Of a stretch of 42,887 nucleotides of DNA, positions 27,472 to 37,906 are shown one piece after another. The notes beneath the pieces were generated by a model. It worked only from the letters and a program-made list of their open reading frames with translations. It did not search any database and was not told the origin of the DNA. Position numbers and translations under genes: made by a program. This stretch comes from Butyricicoccus sp. (lineage in GTDB: Bacteria; Bacillota; Clostridia; Oscillospirales; Butyricicoccaceae). The stretch is taken from positions 1 through 42,887 of the forward strand of contig JARIAV010000114.1 in the NCBI GenBank assembly GCA_029257685.1, in the 5' to 3' direction. Numbering within the stretch: position 1 is the first letter of the stretch; each line of letters begins with the position of its first letter.

Positions 27472-30400
27472 TTACAGTTCAAACAAAACGGTCTTGATCT
27501 CATAGGGATGCAGGCTCATGCAGACCTTGTGCTCTGTGCTTGCCGTTCCGATCGGACGCTCACGCAGATCGCCTTCCGTCCAGCACTTATGGGAAAAGGC
27601 CGGTGTCAGGCAAACCTTCTGCTTGCTTCCTGCAAAGTCATGGAAGCGTACTACAAGATACTTGCCATCCTCAGACTTCTTAACGGCATCGATCTCGATC
27701 TGGTCATTGTCGATGGTGAAGAAGCTGTCACATGCGATCCCATCTGCACCGGCTGCCACCAGCATCGGGTTGTTCAGGGCATGTGCAGACTGTACCACAC
27801 CGCCTGCTACAAAGTCTCCGCTGTGCGGCAGGAGTGCATAGGTAAACGTATGCTGTCCGACATCCTGCAAGTGGTCTGGCTGCTTGCCCGAACGGAGCAG
27901 GGACAGACGCATAACATTGTCCTTGATATCATAGCCATACTTGCAGTCATTGAGCAGGCTCACGCCGAAGCCGCGCTCGGACAGATCGGCAAAGCGATGC
28001 CCGACGGACTCGAAGCGTGCCTGATCCCAGCTGGTGTTCCAATGGTTCGGACGGCGCACATTGCCGTACTGGATATCGTAGGTCGCGTAGGTCGTGCGCA
28101 CATCGACGGTGAATGCCGCCTTGAGCAGCTGCTGACGCTCCTGATAGTCCACGTCGGTCTTGAAGTCGATGCGGCGTTCCGTGCTGTACAGTACCATATC
28201 CTGCGCAATGCGCGTCTTCATGTACGTCCATTCCATGTGCAGCACGAGCTGGAGCGGACCACATTCCTTGACCTCCATCACGGTCAGATCGGTGATCTCG
28301 CGCATCTTCTGCTGATAGAAGATATCGATATCCCATGCGTCGTTATCGATCGGCTTGTCCTCGAACATCTGGAGCACATTGCCGCGCTCACCTGCCGCGA
28401 GCACTTCGCGCTGGTTGTCCTTGTCGAACAGACGTACCATCTGACCGTACTCGTTGAGTTCGATGAGGTAGAATGGGGTCTCGATCTTCTTGCCATCCAC
28501 GGTGAACGGGGACTTTGCCATCTCCGGTGTACCAGTCTGGAAGCCAATGACCTTATGGCCCATAGCCGGGATGTTGTCCACCTTGACATAGGTGACATCC
28601 TTGGCACGCTGTGCAGGCAGCACATTGCCCTCTGCATCGGTAAAGATGCCCTGCTCGGTCGTCGGTACTGCAACGATCTCGTCGAGTGCCCAGCCGGAAG
28701 CATTGTATACGGTAAACGCATCTGCTTTCTTTGCAACATTCTGCTCAAGATATGCGTCCACGACAGACTGTGCGATCTCCTGTGTCTTCTGGTAATCCTT
28801 GCGGGAATCCTCATAGACCTCATGGATGGACGAGCCCGGAATGATGTCATGGAACTGGTTGGTCAGGATGATCTTCCATCCCTCGCTCAGGGCCTCCTGC
28901 TGGGCCTCGTCCAGCTTTCCCTGCATGACTGCCTGCATTGCGGTCATCCATTCTGCCTGACGGTACAGGAGCTCCATCTTGCGGTTCATGCGCTTGTTAT
29001 AGCCCTGACTGGTATATGTGCCGCGGTGATACTCCAGATACAGTTCACCATCCCATGTATGTACATAGCGATCGGTGTTCTTGATGGTCTCCTTGAGATC
29101 GCGGAAATATTCACGCGCGGTGGAAGTCTTGAGCGATGGCAGACCCGGGATCTTGTCGATACGGCGACGGCGTTCCAGCAGGTCACGGTTGACACCACCG
29201 CCGCCATCTCCGTAGCCGTAGGAGATCAGCAGGTTTTTGTTTACGTCCTTTTCGCTGTAAGCATCCCATACGCCCTTGACTGTCTTTGCCGTCAGCAGAC
29301 CATTGTAGGTGTAGAACCACGAGCCCGGCTGGTTCCACGGCTCCGGTGTGGTGATGAAGTGCGTCAGGACCTCGCTTCCGTCGATGCCCTTCCAGTGGAA
29401 GGTATCATGGGGCATTCTATTGTACTGGTTCCAGCTGATCTTGGTCGTCATGAACATATCGATGCCCGACTTCTTGAGGATCTGCGGCAGTGCCCAGGAG
29501 TAACCGAATACATCAGGCAGCCACAGGTATTCCACGTCCTTGCCGAACTCGTCCTTGATGAACTTGCTGCCCAGCAGGATCTGACGGGTCAGGGATTCGC
29601 CGCTTGTGAGGTTGCAGTCTGCCTCGACCCACATGCCGCCGTCCACTTCCCAGCGTCCCTCTGCAATGCGCTTCTTCATTTCCTCGTAGATCTCCGGAAA
29701 ATCTTCCTTGATATACGCATACAGCTGCGGCTGTGTCTGGAGGAAAATATACTCTGGGAACATCTCCATCATACGCAGTACGGTGGAGAAAGAACGGGAG
29801 ATCTTCTCATGGGTGTGCTTGAGCCGCCACAGCCAAGCCACATCGATATGGGTATGGCCGACACAGCGCACCTCTACGAGAGATCTTTTGTCCATGCCGT
29901 CGATCTTCTCATTGAGCACTTCATCTGCCGTATGTACCGATTCGTAAAATTCCTCGCTGCCCGGATAGGACCAGTCGATGTGGTGGCAGGCCTCATCGAG
30001 TGCATTCCTGAGATCGTTCTTGATCGGGTCGCCGTCTGCCAGTTCGCGCACGGTGTCCCAAACCAGATGCCCCAGATAGTAGAAGTCATCGGTCTTTTCG
30101 TCCAGCCAAGCGAGATCTGCGCGGGCGATCTTATGCTCCTGCGGACGCGGCACACCGCCGCCCTCCAGACCGGACCACAGACGGAAGGTCAGGCGGAAGG
30201 TCGTTCCATACAGCTCCTCCGGAAAGAATACTTCCTTATGGTTGACGTCCACGCCCTGATAAGGCTTTTCATTGATATAGCACATCGCCTCGAAGCCTGC
30301 ATTGTTGCCGGCGCCCGTGTTGCCGAAATCGAAAATGCCGACCGCGCGGCGACCCTTCCACTCTGCGGGAATGGTGATCTCCTTATGCATCCAGAGGTAT

Positions 30401-30591
30401 CGGTCACGGCCGCTCCAGCAGTCTCCGACATGGATGGTGTCCCATCCGGAAAAATCCGTCGGCACCGTTGGATTGACGACGCCCTGTGTATCCTCACACA
30501 CTGCAAACTCTTTGAGTGCAGTTACATCGCGGTAGCAATACTCGCGTACTTCATTGATTCTGCGTTCCAGTTTTCTTTCGGTTAAAAACAT
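27472..30591 (-). CDS. GH38 alpha-mannosidase
   Basis: The 1039-residue enzyme has the GH38 order: N-terminal beta domain (1-230), catalytic domain with zinc motif GHTHIDVAWLW (His248, Asp250) and nucleophile WVEADCNLTSGESL (Asp325), helical bundle, and C-terminal beta domains. There is no signal peptide, so it acts in the cytosol on imported oligosaccharide and removes alpha-linked mannose. The length matches bacterial enzymes of the yeast Ams1/mammalian Man2C1 branch. GGGAGG precedes the ATG at 30591. It has its own promoter and shares a transcript with DUF624. Together with GH125 it would strip a high-mannose glycan to the beta-mannosyl core. Confidence 0.96.
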   Translation of the reverse strand: MFLTERKLERRINEVREYCYRDVTALKEFAVCEDTQGVVNPTVPTDFSGWDTIHVGDCWSGRDRYLWMHKEITIPAEWKGRRAVGIFDFGNTGAGNNAGFEAMCYINEKPYQGVDVNHKEVFFPEELYGTTFRLTFRLWSGLEGGGVPRPQEHKIARADLAWLDEKTDDFYYLGHLVWDTVRELADGDPIKNDLRNALDEACHHIDWSYPGSEEFYESVHTADEVLNEKIDGMDKRSLVEVRCVGHTHIDVAWLWRLKHTHEKISRSFSTVLRMMEMFPEYIFLQTQPQLYAYIKEDFPEIYEEMKKRIAEGRWEVDGGMWVEADCNLTSGESLTRQILLGSKFIKDEFGKDVEYLWLPDVFGYSWALPQILKKSGIDMFMTTKISWNQYNRMPHDTFHWKGIDGSEVLTHFITTPEPWNQPGSWFYTYNGLLTAKTVKGVWDAYSEKDVNKNLLISYGYGDGGGGVNRDLLERRRRIDKIPGLPSLKTSTAREYFRDLKETIKNTDRYVHTWDGELYLEYHRGTYTSQGYNKRMNRKMELLYRQAEWMTAMQAVMQGKLDEAQQEALSEGWKIILTNQFHDIIPGSSIHEVYEDSRKDYQKTQEIAQSVVDAYLEQNVAKKADAFTVYNASGWALDEIVAVPTTEQGIFTDAEGNVLPAQRAKDVTYVKVDNIPAMGHKVIGFQTGTPEMAKSPFTVDGKKIETPFYLIELNEYGQMVRLFDKDNQREVLAAGERGNVLQMFEDKPIDNDAWDIDIFYQQKMREITDLTVMEVKECGPLQLVLHMEWTYMKTRIAQDMVLYSTERRIDFKTDVDYQERQQLLKAAFTVDVRTTYATYDIQYGNVRRPNHWNTSWDQARFESVGHRFADLSERGFGVSLLNDCKYGYDIKDNVMRLSLLRSGKQPDHLQDVGQHTFTYALLPHSGDFVAGGVVQSAHALNNPMLVAAGADGIACDSFFTIDNDQIEIDAVKKSEDGKYLVVRFHDFAGSKQKVCLTPAFSHKCWTEGDLRERPIGTASTEHKVCMSLHPYEIKTVLFEL

Positions 30592-30695: not shown

Positions 30696-31982
30696 TCAGA
30701 TGTCCAGACGATATCCCATCGCATCCAAAAACAGCTCTGCATACATGGCATTCGCCCACGAAAACCATTCGCGCGTATAGCTCGCGGGATCATCCACATG
30801 GAAGCCCTCATGCATGACACCCGTTCCGCCGGTCGTGCCTGCCATCTTTTGCAGCAGCTCCAGCTTCTCTTCCTGCGTAGCTGCCGTCAGCCCCTGCACA
30901 GCCAGCGCGATATGCCAGATATAACGCGCCGGTGTATGCGGACTGCCGACCCCTGCCGCAGCCGTACCTGCATAGTAATAGGGGTTTGCCTCGCTCAAAA
31001 TGAACCGGCGTGTGTTTTCCATCACGTCAGGATCTGCCGGATACCCCAGATAGGACATGGCAAGCAGGCTCGGTACGTTTGCATCATCCATCAGGTTATA
31101 CATTCCATAGCCATCGGTTTCATAGGCGTAGATCTCTCCAAAGCCCTCTTTTTTCGTGCGTCCAAGCTGCTCGATCGCGCCCTGTACCTGCTCTTTCATC
31201 CGACGTGCTTCTTCGGCAAGGGATGCATCCCTCAGGATCTGCTCTGCGATCTCCTCCACATATCCAAGCACCACAACGGCAAACATATTGGACGGGATGA
31301 GATATCCATAGGTGCAGGCATCGTCACTGGGACGGAAGCCCGACCAGATGAGTCCCACATTGGGCTTCGTCAGCGCGCCCTTGCCGTCACGGGACAGGGT
31401 ATCGGTGAAATAGCTGCCCGTGCGCACAAAGCGATACGCCGACGCGCCCTCATGATCCTGCTCAGTGCGGAACACATCGAGGATCTCTCGCACGCCTTTC
31501 CGGAAGCTGTCATCGAACTGCCGGATGCAGCCTGTATTCTTCCAGATCAAATAGGCAAGCTGAATGGGATAGCACAGGGAGTCGATCTCGAACTTGCGCT
31601 CCCATACCCACGGGCTTTGATCGGGGTCGTCCTTCTCCCAGCAGGCCCCGCTCGGGCTGTCATTGAATGCATTGGCATATACATCGAGGGACAGATAGAA
31701 AAACTGCCGCTTGACCAAGCCAACCAGCAAGTCCAGCACTTCGGGATCTTCCTTTGCCAAAAACAGATATGGCCGCAGCTGTGCCGTGGAATCCCTGAGC
31801 CACATTGCAGGGATATCCCCTGTAATGACATGTACCGTTCCATCTGCCATGCGCTTGACCGTGGTATCCAATGTATTGGTATAGCAGGTGATAAACTGCT
31901 CCATCAATGCGGGATATGCTGCCGCCCGCTCGCTGAGCTTCTCTAAAAAAGCCTGCATCGGCTGTGATCGTTCTTTCTCCAT
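30696..31982 (-). CDS. GH125 exo-alpha-1,6-mannosidase
   Basis: The 428-residue protein fits the GH125 family along its length: IPAMWLRDSTAQLRPYLFLA near the N-terminus, NVGLIWSGFRPSDDACTYGY with the general acid Asp, and MHEGFHVDDPASYTREWFSW with the catalytic base region near the end. No signal peptide is present, so it works in the cytosol. GH125 enzymes remove alpha-1,6-mannose by inversion, complementing GH38 on the N-glycan core. AAGGAG lies 9 bases before the ATG. A GATACAAT -10-like box on the minus strand at 32017-32024 marks a probable separate promoter. Confidence 0.95.
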   Translation of the reverse strand: MEKERSQPMQAFLEKLSERAAAYPALMEQFITCYTNTLDTTVKRMADGTVHVITGDIPAMWLRDSTAQLRPYLFLAKEDPEVLDLLVGLVKRQFFYLSLDVYANAFNDSPSGACWEKDDPDQSPWVWERKFEIDSLCYPIQLAYLIWKNTGCIRQFDDSFRKGVREILDVFRTEQDHEGASAYRFVRTGSYFTDTLSRDGKGALTKPNVGLIWSGFRPSDDACTYGYLIPSNMFAVVVLGYVEEIAEQILRDASLAEEARRMKEQVQGAIEQLGRTKKEGFGEIYAYETDGYGMYNLMDDANVPSLLAMSYLGYPADPDVMENTRRFILSEANPYYYAGTAAAGVGSPHTPARYIWHIALAVQGLTAATQEEKLELLQKMAGTTGGTGVMHEGFHVDDPASYTREWFSWANAMYAELFLDAMGYRLDI

Positions 31983-32120
31983 TTCGGATATACTCCTTGC
32001 CCTTACTTGATTGGTTTCATTGTATCAGGACTGTCCGTTTCTTCCTAGTGGAATAAATTTAGAAATCCGTGTCATATTCTACCTTTTCATAAGGTGCATC
32101 CTGTCCCCTAAAAAAGAGAG

Positions 32121-32156
32121 CACCAGAGACACATCACAAGTGATGAATCTCTGGTG
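32121..32156 (-). terminator. Terminator downstream of the GH85 gene
   Basis: Nested arms CACCAGAGA/TCTCTGGTG and CATCAC/GTGATG fold into one long hairpin. On the minus strand CTCTC then TTTTTT follows. Confidence 0.85.
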
Positions 32157-32163
32157 TGAGGTC

Positions 32164-32202
32164 TGCCGAGGGGGTGAGATCGCGATCTGCGCCCCCTCGG
32201 CA
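32164..32202 (-). other. GC-rich hairpin between GH85 and its terminator
   Basis: TGCCGAGGGGG/CCCCCTCGGCA arms enclose the palindrome AGATCGCGATCT. It starts 17 bases after the GH85 frame's final stop and 7 bases before the terminator. It lacks its own T-run; it may stabilise the transcript's 3' end. Confidence 0.7.
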
Positions 32203-32218
32203 AAATCGGAGTGCGATA

Positions 32219-34993
32219 TTATGGATTGGGCAATCCAAATACCTGTACCTCGTAGATACGGGCCGCGGTATCTGAACCCTGTGTAGGCTTATGGATCTTC
32301 AGCTTGACGTAGCGTGCCGCGACGGGCGCGAAGGTGTCCTTGGTCTGTCCCTCCGCATTGCGTGTCACATTCACGACCTCCTGAAAGTCCTTTCCATCTG
32401 CGCTGACCGAAATGGTATACGCCTTGGTATTCATGTCTGCGCCTTCACCGCCTGCCTGTGCATGCGCGATCACAACTTCACTGACCTGATTGACGCTTCC
32501 GAGATCGATGGTGATCTCATGCGGCGGTGTCCCAACGGCACACCATTTCTTCTTGAGGTCGCCATCGAGTGCAAATTTTGGGGCCTCGTTTTCATTGACA
32601 AAGGAAGACGCCGCCGCAGTCTTACCCTGTGACAGATTTTTGAGGGTCTTTGCATTCTCTGCAATGACGATGCAGCCCTTGACGGTCTTTGCATCTGTGC
32701 CGGCACTGTTCTTCACGCGCACGGTGACATCATAAGTGCCCGGCTTGTCATAGGTAACGCTGACGGTCTCCCCGTCTGCCTGTGTCTTGCTCGCACCCGG
32801 CAGCTCCCATGCCACATCCTTGGTATTGAGCGAGCTTGTGCTCGTGAAAGTAATGGTCTCCTTGGGTGCAGCCAGCGTTTTGGAAGCCTTGAAGCCAGCC
32901 TTGGGCAGGCTGTTGTTGGGCCACGCCATCTGCGCGGTCGTTTCCGCGCCCTGTGTCTGGCTGAGATCGACCGGAACGACCGCAAACTTGGTCGTATTGC
33001 TTTCGCCCTCACGCGGCAGGGCATTGACTTAGTAGCTGTTGGTGTTGGAAACCCCGATCTAAGAGCGCGATCCATCCGCATTGACGCGGTACACCTCATA
33101 GTATGGCGCATTGCCCTCCGCCTTCCACGACAGACGGGCCCCTGCAAACATTGCATCCTCGTCAAATTCCGTTCCATCGACCTTGAGCGCGGAAACCTTT
33201 GCATTCTGGATCTGTGGTTTTTCATATACGGAGATATTGCCAAAATGGAAGGTATATTCCGGTGCTGCCTTGGATGCCGTCAGTTCATACGCGATACGCT
33301 GTACACGCTTGCCCGCCAGCTTGGATCCATCGAATTTCACGGTCGTCCAGTCTGCGCCGATCTCCTGATCTGCTGCAATGCACTGCTCTGTTCCGTCCTC
33401 CAAGGTGGCGATCAGCTGCAATCTGGTAGGCACCGACGCCTTTGCCGTGGTCGTCCAGAGGGTGTCCTTCGTAATGGGCAGATCGGCGCTGTAAAGCGTG
33501 ATCTTGCTTGCCTTGCCTGCTTCCATGCTGCCTGCCAGCTTGATGGAATTTCCACCATACCAAGCCTGTGTATTGTCAAAGGAAGCCTCCAGCTTGTTGC
33601 TTCCGGTATGTGTCATCAGGAAGCGATAGGTCGGCAGGAGATCGGACAGGCTGCGGTTGTTCCAGTCCATCTTGGACACTTCCTGTCCCTGACGGAAGAA
33701 GCTCGCACCATTGCCCAGCGAGAAGTTGGTCACGAACGGCGTGCCCGTGATCGCGGAACGCTCTACTACATAGCGCGAAACCCCGCGCCACTGATCCGGT
33801 GAAGTATAGGTCATCTTTGCAGACGGGTCGCCCTGTGCATTGACCCAGAGTGCGGACTCTTTCTTCAGGAAATCCTGCTGGTCGCTTGCTGAGGTATAGG
33901 TCCAGCTTGGGCAGTACAGACCCAGCGAAGTATGGGTACCGCCCTCCTTCTTCTCAAACAGATCCCAGCGGATCGGGGTCTCATATCCCTTGCTCTGGAT
34001 ATCGACACCGGCATAGAGTGCATAGGGATCGATCTTCTTTTCTGTCGCCAGCTTTGCAGAGCTTTCCAGCAGTTTTTTCTCTGCCAGATTCTTGTTCGTC
34101 CACCAGAAGTTGAGGAACATGTCATCTGCGACCGGCTTGCCCTCTGCATCCTGCAGGAACATCAGGTTTTCCTGCGTCAGCGCGTTCTGCCAGTCCATCG
34201 CACCGGTCCTGGTCATGGAATCATACCAAACAAGCTCCAGCTCCGGTGCTTTCTGCTTGAACTGTTTGATGAATGCCTGCATCTTGGAGGCATATTCCGG
34301 CTTCAAGCCGCCGTTCTTTTCGTTGTCCGTCTCCTGATTGATGAACCAGCCATCGAACCCATAGGTCTTTGCAACCTCAATGAGTTTATCTGCCATCGGG
34401 AACTTTCCGGCTGCATCCTGCTTCAGGAAGGTATCCAGCCACTCGATCTTTCCACCTGCAACGTCCTGCGGGAAAAACACGGTCCCGATCACGGGCACAC
34501 CATTCTTATGTGCGGCATCGGTGACATCCGGACTGGGCGGCACGATGAGCCCTTCCCCCGAAGAGCCGCCCCAGTAAACCAGCAGATCCACATACTGCCA
34601 GAAGGTGAATGTGTTGCTGTCCATTTCATTGAGGCCATGCGGCGCATTGCCGCTCGTGCTGGTATTCATGATCGAGATCGCCATGACCTTGGTATCCGGA
34701 TTCTGGGTATCATTGACCGGCTTGCGTTTGGATTTCTCCACACGCTTTGCCAGCGGCACATGGCTGATATTATGCTGCAGATCGGGATCCTTCTTGGCAT
34801 CCCATTCCAACAGCTGCTCCGGAAACCAATAAGAGGACTCCGGAAGTTTTTCCATCACAAGTCCCGGTGCTGTATTTTCTTCGGTCACATGGATTGCAGG
34901 CGCTGCCGCTGCCGCGACGGGATATGGGCTCAAACTCATGCACATTGCAGCGGTCAGGCTCACTGCAGTGATATATTTTACGGTTTTTTTCAT
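32219..34993 (-). pseudogene. GH85 endo-beta-N-acetylglucosaminidase interrupted by two in-frame stops
   Basis: A single frame spans 925 codons: Sec signal peptide (1-28, ending PVAAAAA), GH85 barrel with the catalytic pair Asn219/Glu221 in GWFINQET, beta-sandwich domains, a PKD-like domain (TITFTSTSSLNTKDVAWELP), and a C-terminal discoidin/CBM32-like domain (NLSQGKTAAASSF to YEVQVFGL). Codon 645 is TAG (33059-33061) and codon 655 is TAA (33029-33031), inside an Fn3-like third domain. The residues between and after them read as normal family sequence (IGVSNTNSY; VNALPREGESNTTKF), and no frameshift is seen. A 644-residue secreted product would keep the whole catalytic domain but lose the binding modules. 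It may be a recent loss, a sequencing error, or a shortened but active enzyme. ATG 34993 has an AGGAG site. Confidence 0.88.
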
Positions 34994-35235: not shown

Positions 35236-37830
35236 TTATGCCTGTACTTCCAGTGTGATCTCCAAGGACTTACCATACAGCTCCTTGGTGTTGCACTTGA
35301 GCTGTACATTCTCCTTATTTGCAGTCGCCTGGATCTTTTCATCCTTGCTGACGATCTTTGCATTCGGGATATCCAGTACCAGCTCGATGCTGTCCTGACG
35401 GAACAGCGGATCGGACAGTGCAACCGTGATCTTGCCATCCGCCTGCTTCATCAGAACAGAGACCGGCTTGGAAGCCTTGATCCCGGCAGTCTTTCCTGCT
35501 TCAAAGAAGTTCACGGCTGTGACCTGCCCCTCGGTGTCCTGTACAGCATGGATGCTCTTGGAATTCTCGAGGATCTTGACATCCGGCTTTGCCGCATACT
35601 GCTTCATGCTTTCTGCGGTCGCATTGGGCAGCATGACATAGCTGTAAGCGTCCTCTGCCTTCTTGCCATGTTCGTAGGTCATGGTGAAGTACTTCTGGGT
35701 CACAGGGTATTCCTTCTGATTTGCTACATTGCGGACATTCTTCTGCTCGCCCTTGATGGTCGGGGTCGCGATCTTGATCTCCTTGCTCTCCGGGAAGTAA
35801 TAGCCGACCTTTGCCTTGATGCTGTCATCCTGATATGCCAGCCACTGCGGATCGAAGGTACCTTCCTTGATGGTCAGGGCCTTGCCATCGCGTCCCTGTG
35901 CGGTGATCTGCGGCTTTGCATCGACCGCCATCATGCGGTTATCGATGGTGGTGGTCACATCGCGCTTGTCTGCATCGCCAATGCCGGAGCCCATGAATAC
36001 GATCTTGTCCTCCATCATGAACCACGACTTATTGCCTGTTGCATTCTTATAGGTCACAAAGTCCTCAGGCAACTTGCCTGCCTTCTTTGCCGCGTATGCG
36101 TTCTCATCCCCAAGCTGCATGCCAGCCATGCTGACGCTTCCATCCTTCAGAGCTACACTGCCAGAGAAGGTATTGGTTCCAACCGGGAAGTATACATAGT
36201 CGTTCTGCTCTACGCTGCTCGGGCCATACTTCGGATAAGTGAAGCTGCCATCATACAGTTCCATAATGGTCTTACGCTGCTCATTCGGAACGGTCGTACC
36301 CGGCAGGCGCAGCGGATCGACGGTCGAGAAATAGTTGATGCCATACTGCTTGGTCTGGTCTACGCCGGACAGATACAGGTAGAATGCACCATCGCCCTGG
36401 AACCATGGTCTCAGGTTCTCACCGCTCATGTATTCATACTTTGCAATGCGGTCAGAGCTTCTGGACAGCGCAAAGGTGAAACCGTCTGCGCGCTGGAGAT
36501 TGCGATCCATGGCATTGAACACGGTGCTGCCCTTCGGGGTCACGCTTGCCGGCTGGATCTTTTCATCGTTCATGATCGCGGTGAACGGTGCGATCGCAGG
36601 CAGGTTGAGGCTGGAAGCAGAGAATGCAACCGGCATGGATTTCACAAAATGCTTGATCTGCTGCTGCATCTTCTTGCTGTTCTCCTCCGGCAGGAAGGTG
36701 GTCAGCAGGGTCATGGCCTCTACCACGCCAGCCGTATCCGAATAGCCGGTATTGGTACGGGAAACCGCACGCCCCTTTACGACCTCGGACATATAGCCTT
36801 CATGAATGAGAGGCAGGAAGCTCTTGTAGATCCAGTTTTCAATGGTCGCGACCTGCTCCTTGGGCTGCCACGGCGTATCTTGTAAGATATAGAGCGAAGA
36901 TGCCGCCTTCTGGAGCATCAGCTTGCCATAAGAGCCCGTGTATGCAACGCGGTGATGCTGGATGAAAGAACCGTCCGCATAGACACCATCGGTATTGTTA
37001 TTCACGATGTGATACGGGTCGATCGGCACGAAAACCGTCAGCATATCCTTGACAGCCTTTTCGATGCGCTTGGTATCCTCGATGAGCGCGCCCTGAATGA
37101 TGCGGTTGGTCGTGATATCGATCAGGTTCGTACCCGTATGCATGGCAGACTTGAGGTCGATGTCGCCATTCTTTCCGCATCTGAGATGATTGTCAAACAT
37201 CTTTACAAAGTTGCCGATCATCTTCGGATCATGCTTCTGGATTTCTTCCTGCATGAGAGCAAGTACACCGGTCATTTCGGTCGGGACACCGATCTCCCAG
37301 TTCCACCAGTTGCCGAACAGTCTGCCGTCCGCAGCCTTGAAGGAGGTGTGCTTATTATACACATTGTAGAATGCATCCACCGCTTCAACGATCTTCTTTT
37401 GCAGCTCGGCATCCTTATAATACTTGGAGCCACTGGTTGCATACGCAAGTGCCATGTCGAACAGGTACTGCGCATTCTTGTTGAACGCATTGGAGTTGCC
37501 CGGCTCTGCCTTGACGGTCTTTTCGTCGCTCATATCGAACGCATCTCCCGCGAACATGTGGTACGGGTCTTTTACCCCCTGATACGCTGCGATCGCCTTT
37601 TCCGCATCTTTCTCGATCGCGGTAATCTTGGACTTTACATTCTCATTCTGGTTCATCTCCACGCTGCCTGCGAGATACTGTCCGTAATTCTTGAGCAGTA
37701 CATGAGCCGCATTTTTTGTTTCCGGAGCTGCCGCCGTCTGTGCGGAAGCCTCTGCCGCCATAGCCGCCGGTACCGCGCCGCTGCCCAGCAGGATCGAAGA
37801 AACCAAAACACCAGAGATCAACTTTTTCAT
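35236..37830 (-). CDS. Secreted polysaccharide lyase family 8 protein
   Basis: The 864-residue protein has a Sec signal peptide (about 1-26, ending AAMAA), an alpha/alpha toroid with NWWNWEIGVP (174-183), and the PL8 catalytic set: Asn235 in HTGTNLIDIT, His292 and Tyr301 in DGSFIQHHRVAYTGSYG. The C-terminal half is beta-rich, as usual. PL8 lyases cleave hyaluronan, chondroitin or xanthan by beta-elimination outside the cell. The target here cannot be fixed from sequence. No GH88 for unsaturated products is present in the window. No SLH or sortase anchor is seen. ATG 37830 gives the signal peptide; the frame is open to 37899. A promoter and terminator flank it alone. Confidence 0.92.
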   Translation of the reverse strand: MKKLISGVLVSSILLGSGAVPAAMAAEASAQTAAAPETKNAAHVLLKNYGQYLAGSVEMNQNENVKSKITAIEKDAEKAIAAYQGVKDPYHMFAGDAFDMSDEKTVKAEPGNSNAFNKNAQYLFDMALAYATSGSKYYKDAELQKKIVEAVDAFYNVYNKHTSFKAADGRLFGNWWNWEIGVPTEMTGVLALMQEEIQKHDPKMIGNFVKMFDNHLRCGKNGDIDLKSAMHTGTNLIDITTNRIIQGALIEDTKRIEKAVKDMLTVFVPIDPYHIVNNNTDGVYADGSFIQHHRVAYTGSYGKLMLQKAASSLYILQDTPWQPKEQVATIENWIYKSFLPLIHEGYMSEVVKGRAVSRTNTGYSDTAGVVEAMTLLTTFLPEENSKKMQQQIKHFVKSMPVAFSASSLNLPAIAPFTAIMNDEKIQPASVTPKGSTVFNAMDRNLQRADGFTFALSRSSDRIAKYEYMSGENLRPWFQGDGAFYLYLSGVDQTKQYGINYFSTVDPLRLPGTTVPNEQRKTIMELYDGSFTYPKYGPSSVEQNDYVYFPVGTNTFSGSVALKDGSVSMAGMQLGDENAYAAKKAGKLPEDFVTYKNATGNKSWFMMEDKIVFMGSGIGDADKRDVTTTIDNRMMAVDAKPQITAQGRDGKALTIKEGTFDPQWLAYQDDSIKAKVGYYFPESKEIKIATPTIKGEQKNVRNVANQKEYPVTQKYFTMTYEHGKKAEDAYSYVMLPNATAESMKQYAAKPDVKILENSKSIHAVQDTEGQVTAVNFFEAGKTAGIKASKPVSVLMKQADGKITVALSDPLFRQDSIELVLDIPNAKIVSKDEKIQATANKENVQLKCNTKELYGKSLEITLEVQA

Positions 37831-37877
37831 GTGTGAAAACACCTTCCCTTTTTCTTTCTCGGAACGAGTATACTGTG

Positions 37878-37906
37878 ATATTACTATATATTTTTCCATA
37901 TATCAA
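37878..37906 (-). promoter_or_regulatory. Promoter of the PL8 gene
   Basis: On the minus strand: TTGATA (37901-37906), 17 bases, TAATAT (37878-37883). The leader is about 41 bases long. A TATACT box nearby is an alternative. Confidence 0.55.

Follow-up and report, generated by a model that had tools for sequence, protein, structure and literature searches.

Two closely spaced in-frame stops in a predicted GH85 endo-beta-N-acetylglucosaminidase gene of Butyricicoccus sp., probably a recent nonsense allele

A reading frame of Butyricicoccus sp. that is predicted to encode a GH85 endo-beta-N-acetylglucosaminidase contains two internal stop codons, which raises the question of whether the gene has been broken, usefully shortened, kept whole by read-through, or wrongly assembled. 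The window analysed here, a stretch of 42,887 nucleotides (contig JARIAV010000114.1), belongs to a draft genome of 2.37 Mb in 354 contigs that is 99% complete. Direct reading of the minus strand from the ATG at 34993 to the TAA at 32219 bore out the observation of an earlier note on this DNA that both stops lie in one frame common to the parts before and after them. Throughout the 924 codons, no further internal stop and no frameshift was found beyond TAG 645 and TAA 655 (Table 1). Both defects are substitutions, and indels are absent from the gene.

Table 1 Features of the interrupted GH85 frame and its surroundings, with positions in the window
Feature	Positions	Strand	Remarks
GH85 endo-beta-N-acetylglucosaminidase frame (predicted), two internal stops	32219..34993	-	924 codons; direct reading and codon alignment
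Translated part: signal peptide-like start, GH85 catalytic domain, beta-sandwich, first GH85_C strands	33062..34993	-	644 codons
In-frame TAG, codon 645	33059..33061	-	Leu/Phe in 20/20 homologues
In-frame TAA, codon 655	33029..33031	-	Tyr in 19/20 homologues
Untranslated, well-conserved remainder: rest of GH85_C, PKD, F5/8 type C (CBM32-like)	32222..33028	-	269 codons
PL8 (hyaluronate/chondroitin lyase-like), intact, upstream of GH85	35239..37899	-	
GH125 alpha-mannosidase, intact	30699..31982	-	
GH38 alpha-mannosidase, intact	27475..30591	-	
Two strong hairpins 3' of GH85, the second with a U-tract; probable terminator	32105..32212	-	-30.2 and -25.1 kcal/mol, z about -5.5 each

To place the stops in a family context, we compiled a codon alignment of 20 homologous loci from Butyricicoccus, Lachnospiraceae, Bifidobacterium, Enterococcus, and others. 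None of the 20 homologues has a stop at codon 645 or 655; the interruptions therefore lie within a frame that homologues keep open, as in a pseudogene or nonsense allele. The sole homologue without Tyr at codon 655 is the distant L031. The Tyr-Tyr pair that the earlier note had expected at TAC-TAA holds for its second residue, the Tyr at 655 being the invariant one, but not for its first, as most homologues have Phe-Tyr at 654-655. Enzymes with the same GH85-PKD-CBM32 architecture in Butyricicoccus MAGs (L012-L014), Lachnospiraceae, Bifidobacterium, and Enterococcus are 51-68% identical to the window's protein and differ from it in having sense codons at both sites. A survey of 394 genomes of the order gave no full-length GH85 match with internal stops apart from the window's copy; the one TAA recorded in G092 and in G093 is simply where the gene ends. 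Its nearest GH85 relatives are those of the Butyricicoccus MAGs, which represent a different genus of the same family and make Butyricicoccaceae the probable family of the window; GH85 is absent from the five other genomes of the window's genus. No sister allele turned up when viral contigs and plasmids were searched.

The part of the frame that follows the stops is as well preserved as the part that precedes them. Otherwise-invariant residues, counted with one distant and one short homologue excluded, are altered in the window at 4 of 189 positions in codons 50-644 and at 2 of 81 in codons 656-924, and the rates of such change in several other lineages are similar or higher. In protein trees, the lengths of the window branch and the sister-clade stem are 0.26 and 0.12 for the catalytic part, 0.42 and 0.24 for the middle part, and 0.32 and 0.29 after the stops. 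Third-position GC content is 0.66 before the stops and 0.66 after them. No relaxed constraint is thus visible after the stops, a pattern that would be expected of a very young break and also of one that is not a true loss. With conservation equal on the two sides of the stops, and the window branch relative to its sister clade no longer after them than before, these comparisons suggest that the downstream remainder was constrained until recently and that the interruption is recent. The two changes among 81 constrained codons suggest a rough upper bound on its age of a few per cent of neutral divergence.

The spacing of the stops carries some information on how they arose. Two stops placed at random in the GH85 gene are computed to fall 10 or fewer codons apart in 2.1% of cases, and the close spacing is mildly odd under stepwise decay (P about 0.02). 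Free decay is also expected to yield about 20 missense changes per nonsense change, and the frame shows no visible missense excess. Taken together, the clustering and the lack of excess missense change are somewhat easier to reconcile with one local event or an artefact than with stepwise decay. Repeats around the stops are short, imperfect, and at chance level, and none accounts for the clustering; repeat- or template-driven mutation was dropped as a source of the stops for this reason.

Translation would start at 34993 and terminate at codon 645, where the TAG would be read by release factor 1, with the TAA at 655 as a second stop. The expected outcome is a secreted 644-residue protein with the catalytic residues, a torn Fn3-like domain, and no PKD or CBM32-like modules. 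In a Pfam profile search, the truncated part matches the GH85 catalytic domain (PF03644) at residues 119-432 with 308.6 bits against a cut-off of 22.2, which assigns it to the family, whose characteristic reaction is hydrolysis of the N-glycan chitobiose core. This domain includes the catalytic Asn-x-Glu residues Asn219 and Glu221, which lie upstream of the stops and are invariant in a 19-row alignment, in agreement with the earlier claim that the short product retains them. The C-terminal Fn3-like domain GH85_C (PF21910) is matched by the truncated product only at positions 4-43 of 95, with 26.2 bits (below the cut-off of 27), and becomes complete, with 67.2 bits, when the stops are read through. 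The product as translated does not contain a complete Fn3-like PF21910 domain, a feature that is usual among bacterial GH85 enzymes and is not defining for the catalytic family. More than half of GH85_C is lost from the 644-residue product, together with the PKD and F5/8 type C (CBM32-like) domains located 3' of the stops. A second, independently translated secreted product from the region 3' of the stops was considered and rejected, as the first in-frame ATG there (32929) is not followed by a signal peptide.

AlphaFold2 models of moderate confidence (mean pLDDT 75-77) place the cut more precisely. In the read-through model, the Fn3 domain has seven strands (599-610, 616-626, 631-637, 643-649, 653-660, 667-675, and 685-690), and termination at codon 645 would remove four of the seven and leave three, rather than falling at a domain border. 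Only the first two Fn3 strands form in the model of the truncated product, and the third is missing. The partial Pfam match and the models agree with the earlier placement of the cut within an Fn3-like domain, here the seven-stranded GH85_C. The closest structurally characterized systems, Endo-A (3FHA/3FHQ/2VTF) and Endo-D/SpGH85 (2W91/2W92, 3GDB), likewise combine an Asn-x-Glu catalytic domain with an Fn3-like domain. At the positions equivalent to the window's two stops, the residues of Endo-A are Leu and Tyr; on its 621-residue chain, the cut would fall at about residue 572. Its Fn3-like domain 3, made up of residues 363-386 and 525-611, interdigitates with domain 2 (PMC2646837). Since the cut lies inside the Fn3 domain and the equivalent domain of Endo-A is interdigitated in this way, the 644-residue product, with its catalytic residues kept, is most likely unstable or poorly active. 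The loss of four strands, the unformed third strand, and the arrangement in Endo-A thereby lend indirect support to the concern, already raised from the sequence, that such a protein may be unstable. We found nothing in the open-access literature on truncated GH85 enzymes that settles whether these proteins can withstand truncation inside the Fn3 domain.

Other homologues also depart from the full architecture. L031, a more distant homologue, lacks PKD and CBM32 and terminates close to where its Fn3 domain does; the outer modules are therefore dispensable in the family, while L031 seems to keep a complete Fn3 domain. Two short GH85 frames of 482-483 aa in another genome (G375:C53:28376-29560 and G375:C55:10940-12124), whose matches end near the end of the catalytic domain, are possibly natural catalytic-only GH85 enzymes. 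In an uncultured Lachnospiraceae MAG, the GH85 homologue is frameshifted between PKD and CBM32 (L025:10240-10262); its CBM32 is intact and conserved in another frame, no long simple repeat was found at the frameshift site, and the break is independent of that in the window.

Several explanations other than a loss of function have to be weighed. The 644-residue product might be a stable, active, and soluble enzyme freed of its binding modules, as could be argued from its retained catalytic residues and signal-like start and from the existence of L031 and the 482-483 aa frames in G375. However, the cut falls between GH85_C strands and not at a domain border, the equivalent domain of Endo-A is interdigitated with domain 2, and the conserved downstream frame implies that the short form is not long established; we regard this adaptive shortening as unlikely. 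Programmed or regulated read-through of the stops, or a local change of code, would yield the full-length protein and would account for a downstream frame conserved as well as the upstream one. It is very improbable, given that RF1 (prfA) is present and intact (530.6 bits), that the two sites would require different residues, that none of the 20 homologues has the stops, and that local RNA structure is no stronger than in shuffled sequences (z 0.26), which also led us to reject a structure that promotes read-through. Among 43 tRNA matches, all typed but for two weak or truncated ones, no CTA or TTA anticodon was found, although the draft may miss a tRNA. A changed genetic code or a suppressor tRNA was set aside on the basis of the intact RF1 and the missing anticodons. 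Reported values of bacterial read-through are mostly 0.4-2% per stop, with up to 6% in one reporter set and TAA lowest (PMC11126739), so that passage of two stops in series would be very rare. We give very little credence to a variant in which the clustered stops act as a regulated brake: the soluble catalytic form would predominate, and serial read-through would supply traces of full-length enzyme with binding modules, by which the downstream frame would remain under selection. Phase-variable switching by repeats, inversion, or slippage could draw on L025, whose C-terminal part is interrupted as well. It appears extremely improbable, because the stops are substitutions and not slippage indels, the repeats around the site are short and at chance level, neither a repeat tract nor an invertible segment was found there, and L025 is interrupted at another place, by a frameshift with no long simple repeat at its site. 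The suggestion that the full-length protein might be made by read-through or phase-variable expression is thus not supported at this locus.

The main rival is an artefact of consensus, assembly, or strain mixture, in which the draft carries one or both stops while the population lacks them or has them only in a minority. The draft is fragmented, and the two stops lie within 11 codons of each other in an otherwise clean and well-conserved frame. However, both defects are substitutions, the gene has no indels or other defects, and no other recognised gene of the contig is broken. Closely spaced independent substitution errors are unlikely in a short-read consensus. We therefore consider an artefact rather unlikely, while giving it more weight than adaptive shortening, and regard the gene as probably a genuine nonsense allele by which this gut bacterium has recently lost the function of a secreted GH85 enzyme; that the living organism carries the stops, and that activity is lost, is what we infer. 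Recent decay or allele variation, already listed among the options in the earlier note, agrees with the open frames of the homologues, the undiminished downstream conservation, and the absence of any other recognised broken gene in the window. In-frame stops occur often in bacterial genes, and most of them are short-lived, persisting on the scale of population polymorphism (PMC7918605). Like the nonsense-interrupted genes described there, the window has stops in an otherwise conserved, apparently young carbohydrate-gene frame; it differs in having two close stops and not one. Most likely this is a gene of an ordinary kind, recently broken or variable within the population, and not a new genetic mechanism.

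The genes around GH85 point to the function that would be affected. Besides the PL8 lyase and the two mannosidases, a histidine kinase is located nearby, and all recognised neighbour genes in the window are intact. The gene order GH85-GH125-GH38-membrane protein-kinase is common to the window and L012. In L014 (Butyricicoccus sp. MAG.418), the histidine kinase of the locus is split by a frameshift (L014:8333-8393), and the GH125 gene present in L012 and L013 is missing. In Streptococcus pneumoniae, EndoD, GH38, GH125, and an ABC transporter act together on N-glycans (PMC5215778); on the strength of this cooperation, the PL8-GH85-GH125-GH38 locus most likely serves host-glycan use. The enzyme families for N-glycan cores are the same in both; unlike in the Streptococcus pneumoniae set, GH85 in the window adjoins GH125/GH38 and a PL8 lyase, and is broken. 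The double hairpin probably separates GH85 transcription from that of GH125-GH38, so that the truncation should not silence the mannosidases, and we consider their polar loss unlikely. A second GH85 gene in the same genome (L002:1159-4050, G000:C277) is intact, encodes 963 aa with the Asn-x-Glu residues kept, and is about 32% identical; it may have relaxed selection on the broken copy, so that its loss was tolerated. Elsewhere in the draft, an identical tRNA-Leu(gag)-tRNA-Leu(cag) pair with equal spacing occurs near the ends of two contigs (G000:C101:7518-7707 and G000:C136:9421-9610), either as a duplicated cluster or as a duplicated contig end.

As it stands, the finding matters little in itself, as another case of a young, broken carbohydrate gene of a gut commensal. 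It calls for caution in automatic annotation: a GH85 enzyme would be listed here even though its product breaks off inside a structural domain. The interruption suggests that N-glycan release in this genome may depend on the second GH85. Should the gene prove intact in sister strains, the locus would illustrate, on a small scale, how foraging on host glycans is lost at the level of strains.
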